64,000 nt of DNA from Kordiimonas sp. SCSIO 12603 (GTDB taxonomy: Bacteria; Pseudomonadota; Alphaproteobacteria; Sphingomonadales; Kordiimonadaceae): the NCBI RefSeq assembly GCF_024398035.1, contig NZ_CP073748.1:3029001-3093000 (forward strand). Direction: 5' to 3'. The position numbers and the translations under genes were made by a program. Below the pieces are notes generated by a model. It was given only the letters and a program-made list of their open reading frames with translations. It did no database searches and was not told the DNA's origin. This document shows positions 12,865 to 43,543 of the stretch, piece after piece; position 1 is the stretch's first letter; each line of letters begins with the position of its first letter.

Positions 12865-14025
12865 TTATTCGGCAAATGAAGCTTTCACTTCCGCATAGGC
12901 CCAATCGAGCCACTCGGTAAGAATAGCAAGATCGGAAGCATCGACAGTTGCACCTGCCCAGATACGCAGGCCCGGAGGTGCATCACGGTATGCGCCAATA
13001 TCAAAAGCCACACCTTCTTCATCCAGAAGAGCTGCGAGCTTCTTCGGCACTGCCGCTTGCGCCTCGGCATCCAGGCCTGCAAGCCAAGGATCTTTAACCT
13101 TCAGGCAAACTGAGGTGTTGGAGATCGTTGCTGCATCTTCCGCAAGCAGCGCCGCCCAATCAGATGTTTCCACCCAATCTGCAATGGCTTTAAGATTGGC
13201 TTCAGAACGCGCAATCAAACCTTTAAGACCACCAAGACCATCCGCCCATTCAAGCGCATCAATATAATCTTCCACACACAGCATGGATGGTGTGTTGATT
13301 GTGGCACCGGTGAAGATACCTTCAATCAGTTTTCCACCTTTCGTAAGGCGGAAAATTTTTGGCATAGGCCACGCAGGTGTATAGCTCTCAAGGCGTTCAA
13401 CAGCACGCGGGGAGAGAATAAGCACGCCGTGTGCACCCTCACCGCCCAGCACTTTCTGCCAGCTATAAGTGGTTACATCCAATTTGTCCCACGGTAGATC
13501 CATGGCGAATGCTGCCGACGTGGCATCACAAATTGTCAGGCCTTCACGGTCATCCTTGATCCAGTCAGCATTCGGAACTTTCACACCGGATGTTGTGCCA
13601 TTCCATGTGAACACGACATCGCGGTCAGTATCTACTGCGCCAAGATCAGGGAGTTTGCCGTAATCGGCTTCAAAAATTCTTACATCATCAAGCTTAAGCT
13701 GCTTGGAAACATCGGTTATCCAGCCCTTACCAAAGCTTTCCCACGCGAGCATATCAACACCGCGTGCACCGAGAAGCGACCATAATGCAGCTTCAACTGC
13801 ACCAGTATCAGACGCAGGCATAATGCCAATGCGGTAATCATCTGGTACACCAAGGATTTCACGAGTTTTTTCTAACGCATACGCGAGCCGAGCTTTACCG
13901 GGCTTAGAACGATGTGAACGCCCAAGAAGAGCGTTTTTAAGAACATCCTGTGTCCAACCAGGACGTTTAGCGCACGGACCAGAGCTAAACTCCGGACGCA
14001 CGGGTGCCTTTAGTGGCTTTGTCAT
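12865..14025 (-). CDS. serC: Phosphoserine aminotransferase
   Basis: 386 residues from the ATG at 14025. A longer frame reaches 14079, but the chosen ATG has GGAAGG 8 nt upstream and lies directly after the leader hairpins. The enzyme moves an amino group from glutamate to 3-phosphohydroxypyruvate. The [12 protein letters not shown]-terminal substrate segment (about 14-24) and the PLP lysine in [11 protein letters not shown] (Lys about 191) are present, and the CDATSAA segment supplies the PLP aspartate. It is the first gene of the serC-serA-hisZ-purA cluster. Confidence 0.95.
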
Positions 14026-14124
14026 GTCTCTAACCTTCCAGTTAGTTGCGCCTCGTTGGGGAGGCGTGTCCCAATACAAGTGCTGACCTCGCAGACAACT
14101 GCTTCCCAGTTGGGGGAAGTACCA
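14026..14124 (-). ncRNA. Candidate serC leader RNA (two hairpins, ribosome-binding site in the second)
   Basis: Between the predicted start site near 14124 and the serC ATG there are two stems. The upstream one is at 14048-14067 (GCGCCTC pairing with GAGGCGT). The second is at 14030-14045 (CTAAC pairing with GTTAG), with the GGAAGG ribosome-binding site in its loop, 4 nt before the ATG. This layout fits the serC motif described upstream of alphaproteobacterial serC-serA operons (an Rfam family, recalled rather than searched). A third small stem (CTTCCC / GGGAAG, 14102-14119) lies near the 5' end. Sequestration of the ribosome-binding site would give translational control. Confidence 0.68.
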
Positions 14125-40579: not shown

Positions 40580-41548
40580 ATGCCATTACCGCACTTAACA
40601 CTTCATATTGGGCACCCTAAATCTGGCTCCACAACGCTTCAGTCATTTTTATTCCAAAACTGGAAATCTATAGCCGAACAAGGGCTTCATATGCCGAGTG
40701 CATCAATGTCAGTGGCCTCGTCTCAAACTCCATCCGGCAATACTCTTCAAAAACTTGAAGCCTTAAATAAAGTCAAAGATGCCAATCCCATTCGTGATTG
40801 GATAACTGAAATACAACGACATCAAGAAACCCCTCGCCTGCTTATCTCTTCCGAAATCATGGCTGGATTTGGCTTCCCAAAACTGTTTGCACAAGCAGCA
40901 GAGCTCGCGAACTTCCAGATTATCTATTATATCAGGCGACAAGATAAACTCCTTTTATCAGCTTGGAAGCAGTGGGCACTGAAGCGCGGCCTATCTCTAG
41001 ACGAGTTAATCGATAAACGCATCAATGATATGCAACCGAACTTTATAGGCACTATTACAAGGTGGCGAAAAGCTATCCCAAACGCGACATTCCATATCAG
41101 GTTTATTGACCCAGAATTCTTATATTCAAACGACTTAATCAACGATTTTTGTCAAGCTGCGGATATTGACCAAACACACTTACAAAGACCTAAGTCTCAC
41201 CTGAACATGAGTCCTGATGGTAGAATATTAAGCTTTCTTAGCCGCCATTCTTATCTTTTTAAATCAGCTCACGACCATGCCCCCATGGCTTTTCTACAAA
41301 ACGAAAAACAAGGCGGCGATAAAATCGGGTACGGACTAACTCAAGAGCAATTCGACAAAATATATCAACATTACGAACCTCAAAACCAGGAATTGCTTAA
41401 GTTATTTCATCCAGAAATGGCAGGAACGCCCGTAATTAAAAAAGAAAGCGCTCCTATATGGGACCGCGCAACCGGATTCAGTGTAGAGGAAGAACGTTCA
41501 TATTTAGGAAATGACCTTATCAACAGGCTATTCAAGGCATGCCAATAA
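40580..41548 (+). CDS. Sulfotransferase-like protein
   Basis: 322 residues. The N-terminal HIGHPKSGSTTLQ segment (about 9-21) matches the 5'-phosphosulfate-binding loop of PAPS-dependent sulfotransferases. A second supporting segment, IIYYIRRQDKLLLSAWKQW, resembles the 3'-phosphate-binding Arg region. The acceptor is unknown. Its stop overlaps the modA start (TAATG), so the two are translationally coupled, and it is 26 bp after the solute-binding protein gene. Confidence 0.75.
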   Translation: MPLPHLTLHIGHPKSGSTTLQSFLFQNWKSIAEQGLHMPSASMSVASSQTPSGNTLQKLEALNKVKDANPIRDWITEIQRHQETPRLLISSEIMAGFGFPKLFAQAAELANFQIIYYIRRQDKLLLSAWKQWALKRGLSLDELIDKRINDMQPNFIGTITRWRKAIPNATFHIRFIDPEFLYSNDLINDFCQAADIDQTHLQRPKSHLNMSPDGRILSFLSRHSYLFKSAHDHAPMAFLQNEKQGGDKIGYGLTQEQFDKIYQHYEPQNQELLKLFHPEMAGTPVIKKESAPIWDRATGFSVEEERSYLGNDLINRLFKACQ

Positions 41549-42309
41549 TGAAACACCTGCTCTCCATAGGCCTTGCTATCTTCTGCATTTATGCTCCCTT
41601 TAATTTTGTAAGAGCAGATGAAAAAGATCTCACAATATTTGCAGCTGCCAGTACCCAAAATGCCTTGATAGAACTAGCTTCAGCATACCCTACAACTGAA
41701 AAAATTAATCTTTCTTTTGGTGGGAGCGCCATCATGGCGCGACAAATTAATGCTGGCGCGCAAACAGATATTTTCATTTCCGCGAATAGAGAATGGGTTC
41801 AATATCTAAAAGATAGCAAAAAACTGCAGGCTAATCCCACCACTCTCGTAGGCAATCGTTTAGTATTAGCTGGCACAAAAAACAGACACTTACCCAATCT
41901 CACCATCCTTGACAGTTCAAAGCTCATTGAGTTAGTCGGCGACACCAAACTAGCTACCCCTAACCCACAAACTGCACCTGCTGGTCAATATGTAAAGCGC
42001 TACCTTCAGTCTATTGACGCATGGAGCCTACTTAAAGGCAAGATGGCATTCAGTCCAAATGTAAGGCAAACGCTCAGGCTAATTGAATATGGTGGTTTAC
42101 CAGGCTTTATATATAGCTCTGACGCACACATAAGTGCCAATGTTCGTGTTCTTTACGAAATCCCTAAAGATATGAACAGTCCCATAGAATATGTGGCGGC
42201 GCCAATTACCGATAACGAAAAAACGAACGCCTTTATCAATTTCCTGAAATCACCAATTGCTGCCCAAATATGGGAAAAATACGGATTTATAACAATTGCA
42301 TCAAATTGA
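41548..42309 (+). CDS. modA: Molybdate-type periplasmic binding protein (orphan ModA)
   Basis: 253 residues from the ATG at 41548 (an ATG three codons earlier is also possible). A signal peptide of about 23 residues precedes LTIFAAASTQNAL, the N-terminal ModA oxyanion-binding signature, then LSFGGSAIMARQINAGAQTDIFISA and a late ATPNPQTAPAG segment that also contributes ligands. ModA binds molybdate or tungstate for the ModBC importer. modB and modC are not adjacent. Coupling to a sulfotransferase-like gene is unusual and raises the possibility of a different oxyanion ligand. Confidence 0.8.
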   Translation: MKHLLSIGLAIFCIYAPFNFVRADEKDLTIFAAASTQNALIELASAYPTTEKINLSFGGSAIMARQINAGAQTDIFISANREWVQYLKDSKKLQANPTTLVGNRLVLAGTKNRHLPNLTILDSSKLIELVGDTKLATPNPQTAPAGQYVKRYLQSIDAWSLLKGKMAFSPNVRQTLRLIEYGGLPGFIYSSDAHISANVRVLYEIPKDMNSPIEYVAAPITDNEKTNAFINFLKSPIAAQIWEKYGFITIASN

Positions 42310-42328
42310 AACTAAACATCGAGTTTCA
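42307..42328. repeat. Inverted repeat upstream of the sigma-54-type promoter
   Basis: TGAAACT and AGTTTCA, 7-bp arms with an 8-bp spacer, centred about 118 bp before the predicted start site. It could be an enhancer site for a sigma-54 activator or merely a weak hairpin after modA, whose stop codon it overlaps. Confidence 0.4.
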
Positions 42329-42409
42329 TTTCAGATCATACATGCTTCATTTTGATACATAAATTTCTTTAAACTGATAAAAACCTATATTTTCCGCCAT
42401 TTCAAAAAC

Positions 42410-42425
42410 TGGCACAGTGGTTGCT
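42410..42425 (+). promoter_or_regulatory. Sigma-54 (RpoN) -24/-12 promoter
   Basis: TGGCAC-N5-TTGCT with exactly 10 bp between the GG and GC dinucleotides, matching the RpoN consensus (TGGCAC-N5-TTGCW) at every specified position. The predicted start is near 42436. RpoN promoters need an activator ATPase, so the transcript below should be conditionally expressed. Confidence 0.7.
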
Positions 42426-42432
42426 ATTCTTT

Positions 42433-42519
42433 ATGCAAACCGATTATCCGGCTGCCACCGATTTCGGTTTAGATCAAGGTTGCTCTAGCTGCCACTTGCA
42501 GCAGCCCAGTGATGAATAG
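42433..42519 (+). CDS. Possible 28-residue peptide with a CxxCH motif
   Basis: A short frame from the ATG at 42433 to the TAG at 42517-42519 encodes a peptide ending in DQGCSSCHLQQPSDE. The CSSCH segment resembles a heme-attachment or metal-binding motif. The weak points are that the ATG lies at or slightly before the RpoN start site predicted at about 42436, and there is no good ribosome-binding site. It is listed as a possibility, alternative to a purely non-coding transcript. Confidence 0.3.
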   Translation: MQTDYPAATDFGLDQGCSSCHLQQPSDE

Positions 42520-42577
42520 CCAACTGCCCAGATTTGCCCCCAAGCAATCCGAACTGGACAGTTGGCTTTTTCTTTTC
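42436..42577 (+). ncRNA. Candidate structured small RNA under an RpoN promoter
   Basis: About 140 nt from the predicted RpoN start to the end of a strong terminator. Visible stems are ACCGA / TCGGT and CTGC / GCAG, with a possible enclosing GGCTGC / GCAGCC pairing. The terminator hairpin is separate and complete. I do not recognise a known RNA family (6S, SRP and common riboswitches were considered). No larger gene fits between modA and the MBL gene. Confidence 0.5.
42518..42577 (+). terminator. Strong intrinsic terminator of the RpoN-driven transcript
   Basis: AGCCAACTG (42518-42526) pairs with CAGTTGGCT (42559-42567) and the inner CCAG pairs with CTGG across a 1x1 mismatch. A TTTTTCTTTTCT tract follows. 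It stands 58 bp before the MBL-fold gene, so that gene needs its own promoter or antitermination. Confidence 0.85.
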
Positions 42578-42634
42578 TCTAGTTGACTTTCCAAGAAACT
42601 GATACAGCTCTCTTCATAAGTTTGTGAGGCAGAT

Positions 42635-43543
42635 ATGAGTGTAGAATTCAAACAGGATTTTTCCGCGGAGTATGGAATACCAGAACAAATGACCAAACGG
42701 GTCACTCGCGTTCTGTGTAACAATCCCAGTCCATTTACCTATACAGGTACAGGAACCTATCTTGTTGGTGCCGAAAATAACCTTGCGGTTATTGATCCCG
42801 GCCCCTTTGATACCGAACACGGGGAAGCTATTTTGAAAGCTGCAAATGGCCGACCTATCTCTCATATCTTCGTAACCCACAGCCATATAGACCACTCCCC
42901 TCTTTCAGCATGGCTTTCTGAAAAAACTGACGCACCAATCTATGCGTTCGGCCCACACGGTACTGGGCGCGCAGGAGGCCTTCAGGAAGAAGAAGTCGAA
43001 GCCGGAGCTGATAAAGAATTCATGCCGGACCACACCATCACAGATGGCGACACCTTCTCAGGCTCTGACTGGACGCTAAAGGCCATTCACACCCCCGGTC
43101 ATACCGCCAATCATATGTGCTTTCTTCTTAAGGAGGAAAAACTCATGTTTGTTGGTGATCACGTTATGGGATGGGCTACAACAGTAATCGCACCACCTGA
43201 TGGTGATGTAAGAAAATATATAGAAAGTCTAAAAAAAATAGCAGAAGAGGATGTTGAGAAACTCATCCCTACCCACGGCCCATGGGTGGAAAATCCAAAA
43301 CCTTTCATCCGCGGCATCGTTACTCACCGTAAAATGCGTGAAGGGCAAATATTAAAGTGCCTTGAAGATGGAGCTAGTACTATCGATATACTAGTGGCTC
43401 GTATGTACAAGGACGTGGATAAACGCCTGCACCCAGCTGCAGCTCGCTCTGTATTCGGGCACATTATTGCGCTCGTTGATGAAGGTAGAATTTCCTGTGA
43501 AGGATCACCACGCCTTTCAAGTACATATAGCTTAGCTGGCTAG
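42635..43543 (+). CDS. MBL-fold metallo-hydrolase (LACTB2-like)
   Basis: 302 residues. The metal-binding motif THSHIDH (His82, His84, Asp86, His87) is intact, with further ligands in TPGHTANH and FVGDHVMGW and the late PTHGP. A C-terminal winged-helix-like part (about 240-300) is typical of the LACTB2 group, whose human member is an endoribonuclease. The bacterial substrate is unknown. A GAGGCAGAT ribosome-binding region precedes the ATG. It lies between the RpoN-driven transcript and nadA. Confidence 0.87.
   Translation: MSVEFKQDFSAEYGIPEQMTKRVTRVLCNNPSPFTYTGTGTYLVGAENNLAVIDPGPFDTEHGEAILKAANGRPISHIFVTHSHIDHSPLSAWLSEKTDAPIYAFGPHGTGRAGGLQEEEVEAGADKEFMPDHTITDGDTFSGSDWTLKAIHTPGHTANHMCFLLKEEKLMFVGDHVMGWATTVIAPPDGDVRKYIESLKKIAEEDVEKLIPTHGPWVENPKPFIRGIVTHRKMREGQILKCLEDGASTIDILVARMYKDVDKRLHPAAARSVFGHIIALVDEGRISCEGSPRLSSTYSLAG

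Follow-up and report, generated by a model that had tools for sequence, protein, structure and literature searches.

In Enterobacteriaceae, the sibling sRNAs GlmY and GlmZ are controlled by GlrR/QseF, sigma-54, IHF and several enhancer sites, and the GlrR site, TGTC-N10-GACA, spans 18 bp. Other regulatory RNAs are sponges that bind protein, CsrB and RsmZ through GGA loops and CrcZ through CA-rich motifs, and CrcZ and CrcY are driven by CbrB together with sigma-54. Qrr1-5 of Vibrionaceae are governed by LuxO and sigma-54, and Qrr RNAs pair with mRNAs of the luxR/hapR type under quorum control. The published sites are TTGCAWWWTGCAA for LuxO and TTCTCANNNTGMDWN for SypG, as given in the available part of PMC10162802. 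In V. cholerae LuxO, alanine changes at 11 residues abolished binding, and several of these residues are common to the NtrC family (available sections of PMC11407668). In Neisseria, the sibling sRNAs NgncR_162/163 act on riboswitch-controlled gcvT and pair at its ribosome-binding region, according to the accessible text of PMC13104608. Within the open-licence PMC literature, sRNA work on Kordiimonas was not found, and passages on LuxO/Qrr in Alphaproteobacteria mention Qrr as a comparison.

Analysis of a Kordiimonas genome (G000; 3.85 Mb, a single contig) points to what is probably a real gene for a trans-acting sRNA of ~140 nt, here called sRNA-A, which would be driven by a LuxO-like protein and sigma-54, be paired with a sibling, sRNA-B, and act through loop seeds; what the sequence itself displays is the match to a promoter, the sites ahead of it, the paired stems with their loops, the terminator, the sibling and the conservation. 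In the window (the whole stretch of 64,000 nt that was analysed), a sequence match to the sigma-54 promoter TGGCAC-N5-TTGCT is present at 42410..42425 on the plus strand (TGGCAC-AGTGG-TTGCT), as the first-pass annotation had reported, and RpoN is encoded in the same genome. This pattern has nine matches in the 3.85-Mb genome vs five for the reversed pattern, so by itself the match is close to what chance would give; the sRNA-A element goes beyond chance because it is conserved, with covariance-model matches across Kordiimonas and retained promoter boxes. The -24 box reads TGGCAY at 19/19 Kordiimonas sRNA-A loci, and the -12 box reads TTGC at 15/19. Another perfect RpoN match in this genome (G000:C1:3297070-3297085, minus strand; L011) has no listed frame of at least 60 codons for more than 1 kb downstream, where GGA-rich sequence is found; it may mark a further non-coding transcript, or be due to chance.

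With the start placed ~12 nt past the GC of the -12 box, the predicted sRNA-A transcript covers 42436..42577 on the plus strand (~140 nt; match to covariance model R1 at 42426-42581, 54.9 bits). The paired segments noted earlier were borne out, since 42435-42577 folds at -48 kcal/mol with a z of -3.96 vs dinucleotide shuffles. Hairpin 1 (AAACCGA/TCGGTTT; 42437..42470, plus strand), with an apical mini-hairpin on top, is supported by folding and by covariation, helix 1 showing both-side changes at 7/7 pairs and, across the 20 sequences of the model-fitted alignment, pairing in 98.5% of cells. Its loop motif, GG-CUGCCA-CC (42450..42459, plus strand), is found in hairpin 1 of 17/19 sRNA-A copies. 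Hairpin 2 (GGTTGCT/AGCAGCC; 42478..42506, plus strand), recognised by folding, has weaker support and is looser (model helix 3, with 71.6% of cells paired in 20 sequences); it carries loop motif 2, GCUGCCAC (42488..42495, plus strand), and the second CUGCCA occurs in 16/19 copies. Hairpin 3 is a Rho-independent terminator (42518..42577, plus strand) with 9-bp arms, AGCCAACTG/CAGTTGGCT, at 42518-42526 and 42559-42567, an inner stem CCAG/CTGG, a C-rich loop and a T-rich tail, in agreement with the strong two-part terminator described before. In addition to the sequence, covariation supports this hairpin (helix 5, 98.8% paired, both-side changes at 10/13 pairs; 20 sequences, model-fitted). Hairpin 1 and the terminator are firm, and hairpin 2 is less so. 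The first RNAalifold consensus was dropped because it paired a loop with DNA of the -24 box, which lies outside the transcript, and the structure used thereafter was hand-drawn from single-sequence folds.

CUGCCA is present twice in 14/19 sRNA-A copies, once in 5/19 and in no case absent (0/19). The first is missing in L027 and L031 and the second in L017, L028 and L032; L032 and L017 have (U)UUUGCCUGAU there instead. Around CUGCCA, both apical closing pairs are mostly G-C and become A-U in one to two sequences. Moreover, the B-type motif UGCCUGA occurs in 4/19 sRNA-A copies; in L032 and L017 it takes the second-loop position, and in L021 and L022 it lies in the linker. This exchange of motifs counts in favour of the proposed sRNA pair. 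No Rfam family matched sRNA-A in the window at the gathering threshold, in keeping with the earlier remark that the RNA resembles no recognised family. The comparison also took in L103, L188 and L211 (gathering threshold) and L083 and L195 (E<=2), again with no family matched; the search at E<=2 returned a single chance-level match, outside the element. The sole Rfam match at the gathering threshold in the window is the serC leader RNA (RF00517, 63.9 bits) at 14025-14076 on the minus strand.

By blastn, the DNA of sRNA-A was recognisable in only three of 40 genomes (its own; G016, 98%; and G011, 57 bases), and the element, comprising TGGCAY, hairpins and terminator, was read upstream of the hydrolase matches in Kordiimonas loci. 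R1, a covariance model of the transcript built on seven seeds with the promoter excluded, was run against 196 genomes of the order and at E<=0.01 matched 18/19 of those from Kordiimonas (seven of the 18 being seeds); the nineteenth, G017, was matched with an E of 2e-6 in a smaller search. These E-values are rough by the search tool's own statement. Three genomes outside Kordiimonas reached E<=0.01 with R1, of which G021 alone is convincing (E 1.9e-5, same locus); its locus has three consecutive loops with GCUGCCAC. Weak R1 matches in G019, G094 and L057 were set aside without reading, and opposite-strand matches at the same loci were set aside as mirror images. In an unfitted MAFFT alignment of the seven seeds, 14/29 pairs change on both sides and 89.2% of cells pair, a level reached by 0/500 shuffles, with slid versions giving at most six pairs. 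The R1-fitted alignment of 20 sequences, which is biased toward the model structure, showed both-side changes at 26/29 pairs with 92.6% of cells paired (0/500 shuffles; slid versions at most ten pairs). The first-pass annotation had named conservation of promoter and stems in close relatives, together with a covariance-model search, as tests of its RpoN-driven small RNA; promoter, stems and locus recur in 19/19 Kordiimonas genomes, which argues for such an RNA.

The flanking genes served as synteny markers. Upstream is a modA-like solute-binding protein gene (Pfam SBP_bac_11; 41539..42309, plus strand), and downstream is an MBL-fold hydrolase gene (Lactamase_B; 42635..43543, plus strand), which is probably not the regulated gene. 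The hydrolase was matched at E<=1e-60 in 40/40 genomes, its own genome counted, with 97% identity to Kordiimonas laminariae and 69% to K. marina. The element had been described as wedged between an orphan modA and this hydrolase; the SBP_bac_11 neighbour is indeed there, and the order modA-like gene, sRNA region, MBL hydrolase and nadA-like gene was also read in L025, L032 and L039. The neighbour gene order is uninformative on the function of sRNA-A.

Three 17-bp enhancer-like dyads of the form TGTYYCA-N3-TGRRACA lie upstream of sRNA-A at approximately -113, -88 and -67 from the -24 box, all on the plus strand: site 1, TGCATCAAATTGAAACT (42297..42313), which matches 11/14 consensus letters and overlaps the stop codon of the modA-like gene; the degenerate site 2, AGTTTCATTTCAGATCA (42322..42338; 10/14 letters); and site 3, TGCTTCATTTTGATACA (42343..42359; 12/14 letters). 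The coordinates first given for the element, 42410-42577, hold for promoter and RNA but leave out these sites at 42297-42359. In L018 and L020, the dyads stand ~ten bases farther upstream. The best site per distance range reached at least 10/14 letters at 19/19, 18/19 and 18/19 sRNA-A loci for sites 1, 2 and 3, respectively, vs ~5% of mononucleotide shuffles per range, which preserve single-base composition only; this count is partly circular because the consensus was derived from the sRNA-A loci themselves. As for other promoter matches in the window's genome, the eight remaining TGGCAC matches do not fit the first site pattern, and the nine TGGCAT-N5-TTGC sites have no upstream enhancer-like site of at least 11/14. 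Additionally, YAANNNNTTGATW, a site like those of the integration-host-factor (IHF) type, stands at -30/-31; as a raw count, at least 8/9 of its letters are found in 14/19 sRNA-A loci, and 6/9 in the window's genome.

Related arrangements were seen at the same locus in two other genomes. Upstream of the hydrolase in G024, which belongs to another family of the order (L043), an RpoN promoter and two enhancer-like sites accompany a different RNA with repeated TTAGACACCTT, which may represent a third loop type. In G023, of the same family as the window's genome (L033), an RpoN promoter and enhancer-like sites are followed by an RNA without CUGCCA loops.

An exact dyad in G018 led to the discovery of sRNA-B, which was afterwards located in G000. 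At the G018 locus, upstream sites of the same type and an RpoN promoter precede an RNA with a terminator and two hairpins whose loops read UUUUGCCUGAG, and the whole stands upstream of an acyltransferase-like gene. In the window's genome, sRNA-B lies at G000:C1:2137135-2137264, with the RpoN box TTGGCACGCTTAATGC and sites at -90 and -108; its fold has a z of -6.64, and the gene after it encodes a Pfam Acyltransferase. The transcript-only model R2, built on seven seeds, matched 19/19 Kordiimonas genomes, five from elsewhere in the family, in other genera (G019, G020, G021, G071 and G076), and G029, from another family. R2 matches in eight genomes outside L188-L212 were dropped; L213, L214 and L216 proved on reading to be without the loop motif, and those in G158, G180, G100, G040 and G038 were dropped unread. 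Opposite-strand R2 matches in G018, G010, G014 and G015 were also dropped.

The sequence UUGCCUGA stands in 49 of the 50 loops at the 25 sRNA-B loci. In the structure of sRNA-B, both-side changes were found at 14/31 pairs (0/500 shuffles; slid versions at most four). Because R2 was built without promoter sequence, these loci provide a fair test of the promoter code. At least two sites of at least 11/14 were present at 24/25 loci (17/18 of the non-seed loci) vs 0.14% of shuffles. The -24 box reads TGGYAY in 24/25 loci, L205 being the deviating one, and the -12 box, imperfect at 4/19 sRNA-A loci, is likewise imperfect at 9/25 sRNA-B loci, where another TGC takes the place of the TTGC found in 16/25. 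In total, 24/25 loci combine TGGYAY at -24 with TGC at -12.

The genome encodes nine full enhancer-binding proteins, two further weak matches being uncounted. Two are closest to LuxO among the named enhancer-binding families, with NCBIfam LuxO scores of 598 and 556 bits vs 402 and 379 for the next family, and the PDB top match for both is 5EP0, LuxO. These scores fall below the 800-bit cut-off of the LuxO equivalog (Vibrio), and the proteins are therefore called LuxO-like, not LuxO. The first (G000:C1:502883-504331) was strongly matched, at 64-100% identity, in 19/19 Kordiimonas genomes and in 5/5 other family genomes searched, and the second (E<=1e-105) in 8/19 Kordiimonas; this conservation count took in only the LuxO-like proteins among the nine. 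In a manual alignment following the numbering in the available part of PMC11407668, the first protein keeps 8/11 critical residues, the changes I to V and I to L being conservative and N410 being K. In addition, the sRNA-A and sRNA-B sites have the CA-N3-TG centre in common with the LuxO and SypG sites given in the accessible portion of PMC10162802. Because of its resemblance to LuxO, its conservation, the residues that it keeps and this common site centre, we propose, with moderate confidence, the first LuxO-like protein as the candidate activator of both sRNAs. The first-pass annotation is supported as to the promoter, the sRNA and the lack of a known family, but missed the duplicated CUGCCA loops, the sibling RNA and the LuxO-like regulator.

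By eye, LuxO-type dyads (TGYYGC/TGCR) were seen in 9/24 promoters of the first LuxO-like gene, and a LuxO-type site above threshold was absent in 13/24, the window's genome included; the background for such dyads is 0.15 to 0.33 sites per region in shuffles. In G024, an RpoN promoter with similar sites stands at the locus, yet a LuxO-like match at E<=1e-105 was not obtained; conversely, G022 and G023 encode the LuxO-like protein and lack a match to sRNA-B. The idea that the RNAs feed back on the LuxO-like gene was considered and rejected: short loop complements lie near its start in 6/24 orthologues, at positions that are not shared. Among plasmids, named LuxO relatives were sought and eight records obtained, none from Vibrio; these were left unused. 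The second LuxO-like protein is encoded at L110 (G000:C1:1682000-1698000) beside an H-NOX (haem-NO-binding) gene and an Hpt-domain hybrid kinase, an arrangement that resembles the Vibrio H-NOX/LuxO wiring. An RpoN promoter at this H-NOX operon has a perfect LuxO site, TTGCAATATGCAA, upstream, and an adjoining exosortase/polysaccharide-export cluster contains an RpoN-like promoter (L182) with TTGCATTTTGCGA upstream.

From these elements we infer a circuit, including transcription itself, the identity of the activator, pairing as the way of acting and a role of Hfq, in which a signal would pass through a kinase to a LuxO-like protein and a sigma-54 promoter, yielding sRNA-A and sRNA-B, whose loops would act on targets. 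An enhancer-binding protein in its phosphorylated state, for which the LuxO-like G000:C1:502883-504331 is the likeliest candidate, would occupy the tandem upstream sites and remodel sigma-54 polymerase at TGGCAC-N5-TTGC, and transcription of sRNA-A would stop at the strong terminator. Acting jointly with the co-regulated sRNA-B, sRNA-A would present UGCC-core loops, which read CUGCCA in sRNA-A and UUGCCUGA in sRNA-B and mostly come in twos, as repeated seeds that may pair with target mRNAs, probably with Hfq; mRNAs bearing UGGCAG or UCAGGCAA would be the partners expected under loop pairing.

For seeds, the loops are short, with 6 to 8 letters that do not vary, and 5/19 sRNA-A copies have a single CUGCCA. 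The main rival to pairing is titration of a protein, in which the UGCC loops would sequester a regulator and both RNAs would be sponges rather than pairing sRNAs. A sponge would fit the two near-identical loops that 14/19 sRNA-A copies and sRNA-B have, and the three loops of G021, as would stems that vary and closing pairs that switch from G-C to A-U while the loop is unchanged. However, the loops of A and B have just UGCC in common, and the conserved run of sRNA-B, which spans at least eight letters with stem positions included, is more like a linear seed. We prefer pairing because this run is longer in sRNA-B, and consider the sponge reading unlikely. As to the activator, the sites might be bound by a different member of the set of nine, such as the uncharacterised protein at C1:1124079, and the system would then not be LuxO-type. 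This is a possible but doubtful alternative: nine such proteins are encoded, with conservation counted for the LuxO-like ones only, G024 has the sites without a close LuxO-like protein, and the kept DNA-contact residues are partly NtrC-family-wide (available part of PMC11407668), whereas the CA-N3-TG dyad resembles the LuxO and SypG sites (available part of PMC10162802), the LuxO-like protein is found in 19/19 Kordiimonas, and 8/11 critical residues of V. cholerae LuxO are kept (PMC11407668, same sections).

Two further readings concern the nature of the transcript. The hydrolase start lies 58 nt past the element here and, by eye, close behind it in most relatives, as would suit a leader or attenuator of the MBL-hydrolase gene with a conditional terminator. 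In K. marina (G012, L016/L044), however, a long reading frame separates sRNA-A from the hydrolase, ~1.4 kb further on, the sibling stands at an unrelated locus, and the terminator stem is 98.8% paired, making a leader very improbable. The transcript might also be the mRNA for a 28-residue CxxCH peptide, encoded by a 28-codon ATG ORF at 42433..42519 on the plus strand; a three-base gap in the sister species G016 (L002) preserves the frame and would then reflect coding. This product was rejected and is hardly credible, because an ATG ORF of at least 20 codons is present within the transcript at only 3/19 Kordiimonas loci, the ATG lies at ~+1 with no ribosome-binding site seen, and the stems covary. 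The earlier observation that no full gene lies between promoter and terminator thus stands.

Under the preferred reading of loop pairing, targets of sRNA-B were searched for with the word CTCAGGCAAA, the exact loop complement, in G000, G018 and G013. Complement sites numbered 23, 24 and 19, respectively, and those of the reversed pattern 0, 0 and 1. For the own genome, an order-3 Markov model predicts 11.5 sites of the complement and 1.6 of the reversed word, and the 23 observed sites thus represent an approximately twofold excess. By manual count, 42/60 complement sites outside the sRNAs in the three genomes lie within sense frames of more than 400 nt, and no target for sRNA-B was found among these 60 sites. 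The loop complement CUCAGGCAAAA is identical to the core that glycine aptamers conserve. Rfam identified two glycine aptamers among 17/60 sites, G000 L256 and G013 L240, both by eye upstream of gcvT-like frames and with a core exactly complementary to the sRNA-B loop. None was found among eight tested of 22 complement sites in G018, which argues against the riboswitch idea. Duplexes formed by the two B loops and the G000 leader do not stand out in energy, since 92 and 229 of 4000 windows drawn at random from the own genome did as well or better; for segments of sRNA-A, this was true of 1155, 2215 and 1439 of 4000 windows. The complementarity of the sRNA-B loop to the glycine-riboswitch core is a weak lead. 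We speculated further that Kordiimonadales independently evolved a Qrr-like circuit, with a LuxO-family activator and interchangeable UGCC-loop siblings, in which the UUUUGCCUGAG loops of sRNA-B pair with the CUCAGGCAAAA core of the gcvT glycine riboswitch and override it at the ligand-binding core; taken as a whole, this scenario is improbable.

If the proposed circuit is true, Qrr-style enhancer-controlled sibling sRNAs exist in Alphaproteobacteria too, with unrelated RNA sequences, and this would indicate how frequently such circuits arise around LuxO-type regulators. The system would also be small and open to genetic tests, with two RNAs, one promoter code and one candidate activator.

Among the described systems, Qrr1-5 are similar in their sigma-54 promoter, LuxO/SypG-type upstream sites, dispersed sibling sRNAs and terminator. 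Unlike in Qrr, the Kordiimonas sites read TGTYYCA-N3-TGRRACA, not the LuxO site TTGCAWWWTGCAA, a perfect copy of which sits at the separate H-NOX operon; the loops are CUGCCA and UUGCCUGA, the host is alphaproteobacterial, and no Qrr Rfam match was obtained in the window, at L103, L188 and L211 or at L083 and L195. GlmY/GlmZ are likewise siblings with sigma-54 and several enhancer sites, and the IHF-like site at -30/-31 of the sRNA-A loci adds to the likeness; however, the Kordiimonas site has 17 bp and an N3 centre vs the 18 bp of GlrR, no Rfam model matched either RNA, and the IHF-like site is poor (6/9) in the window's genome. With CrcZ/CrcY and CsrB/RsmZ, sRNA-A and sRNA-B share the pattern of an enhancer-driven RNA with repeated short motifs, but the Kordiimonas repeats are small UGCC hairpin loops whose conserved letters, CUGCCA or UUGCCUGA, contain no GGA or CA-rich motif. 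NgncR_162/163 are also siblings, with a possible gcvT link here; in Neisseria, pairing is at the ribosome-binding region, as described in the accessible text of PMC13104608, whereas the hint in Kordiimonas is aptamer-core complementarity only. Judging by sequence, we infer that sRNA-A and sRNA-B form a new pair of sigma-54-controlled trans-acting sibling sRNAs, Qrr- or GlmY/GlmZ-like in working but not members of either family, and they look like a previously undescribed relative, by working style, of the RNAs with which some bacteria coordinate group behaviour.
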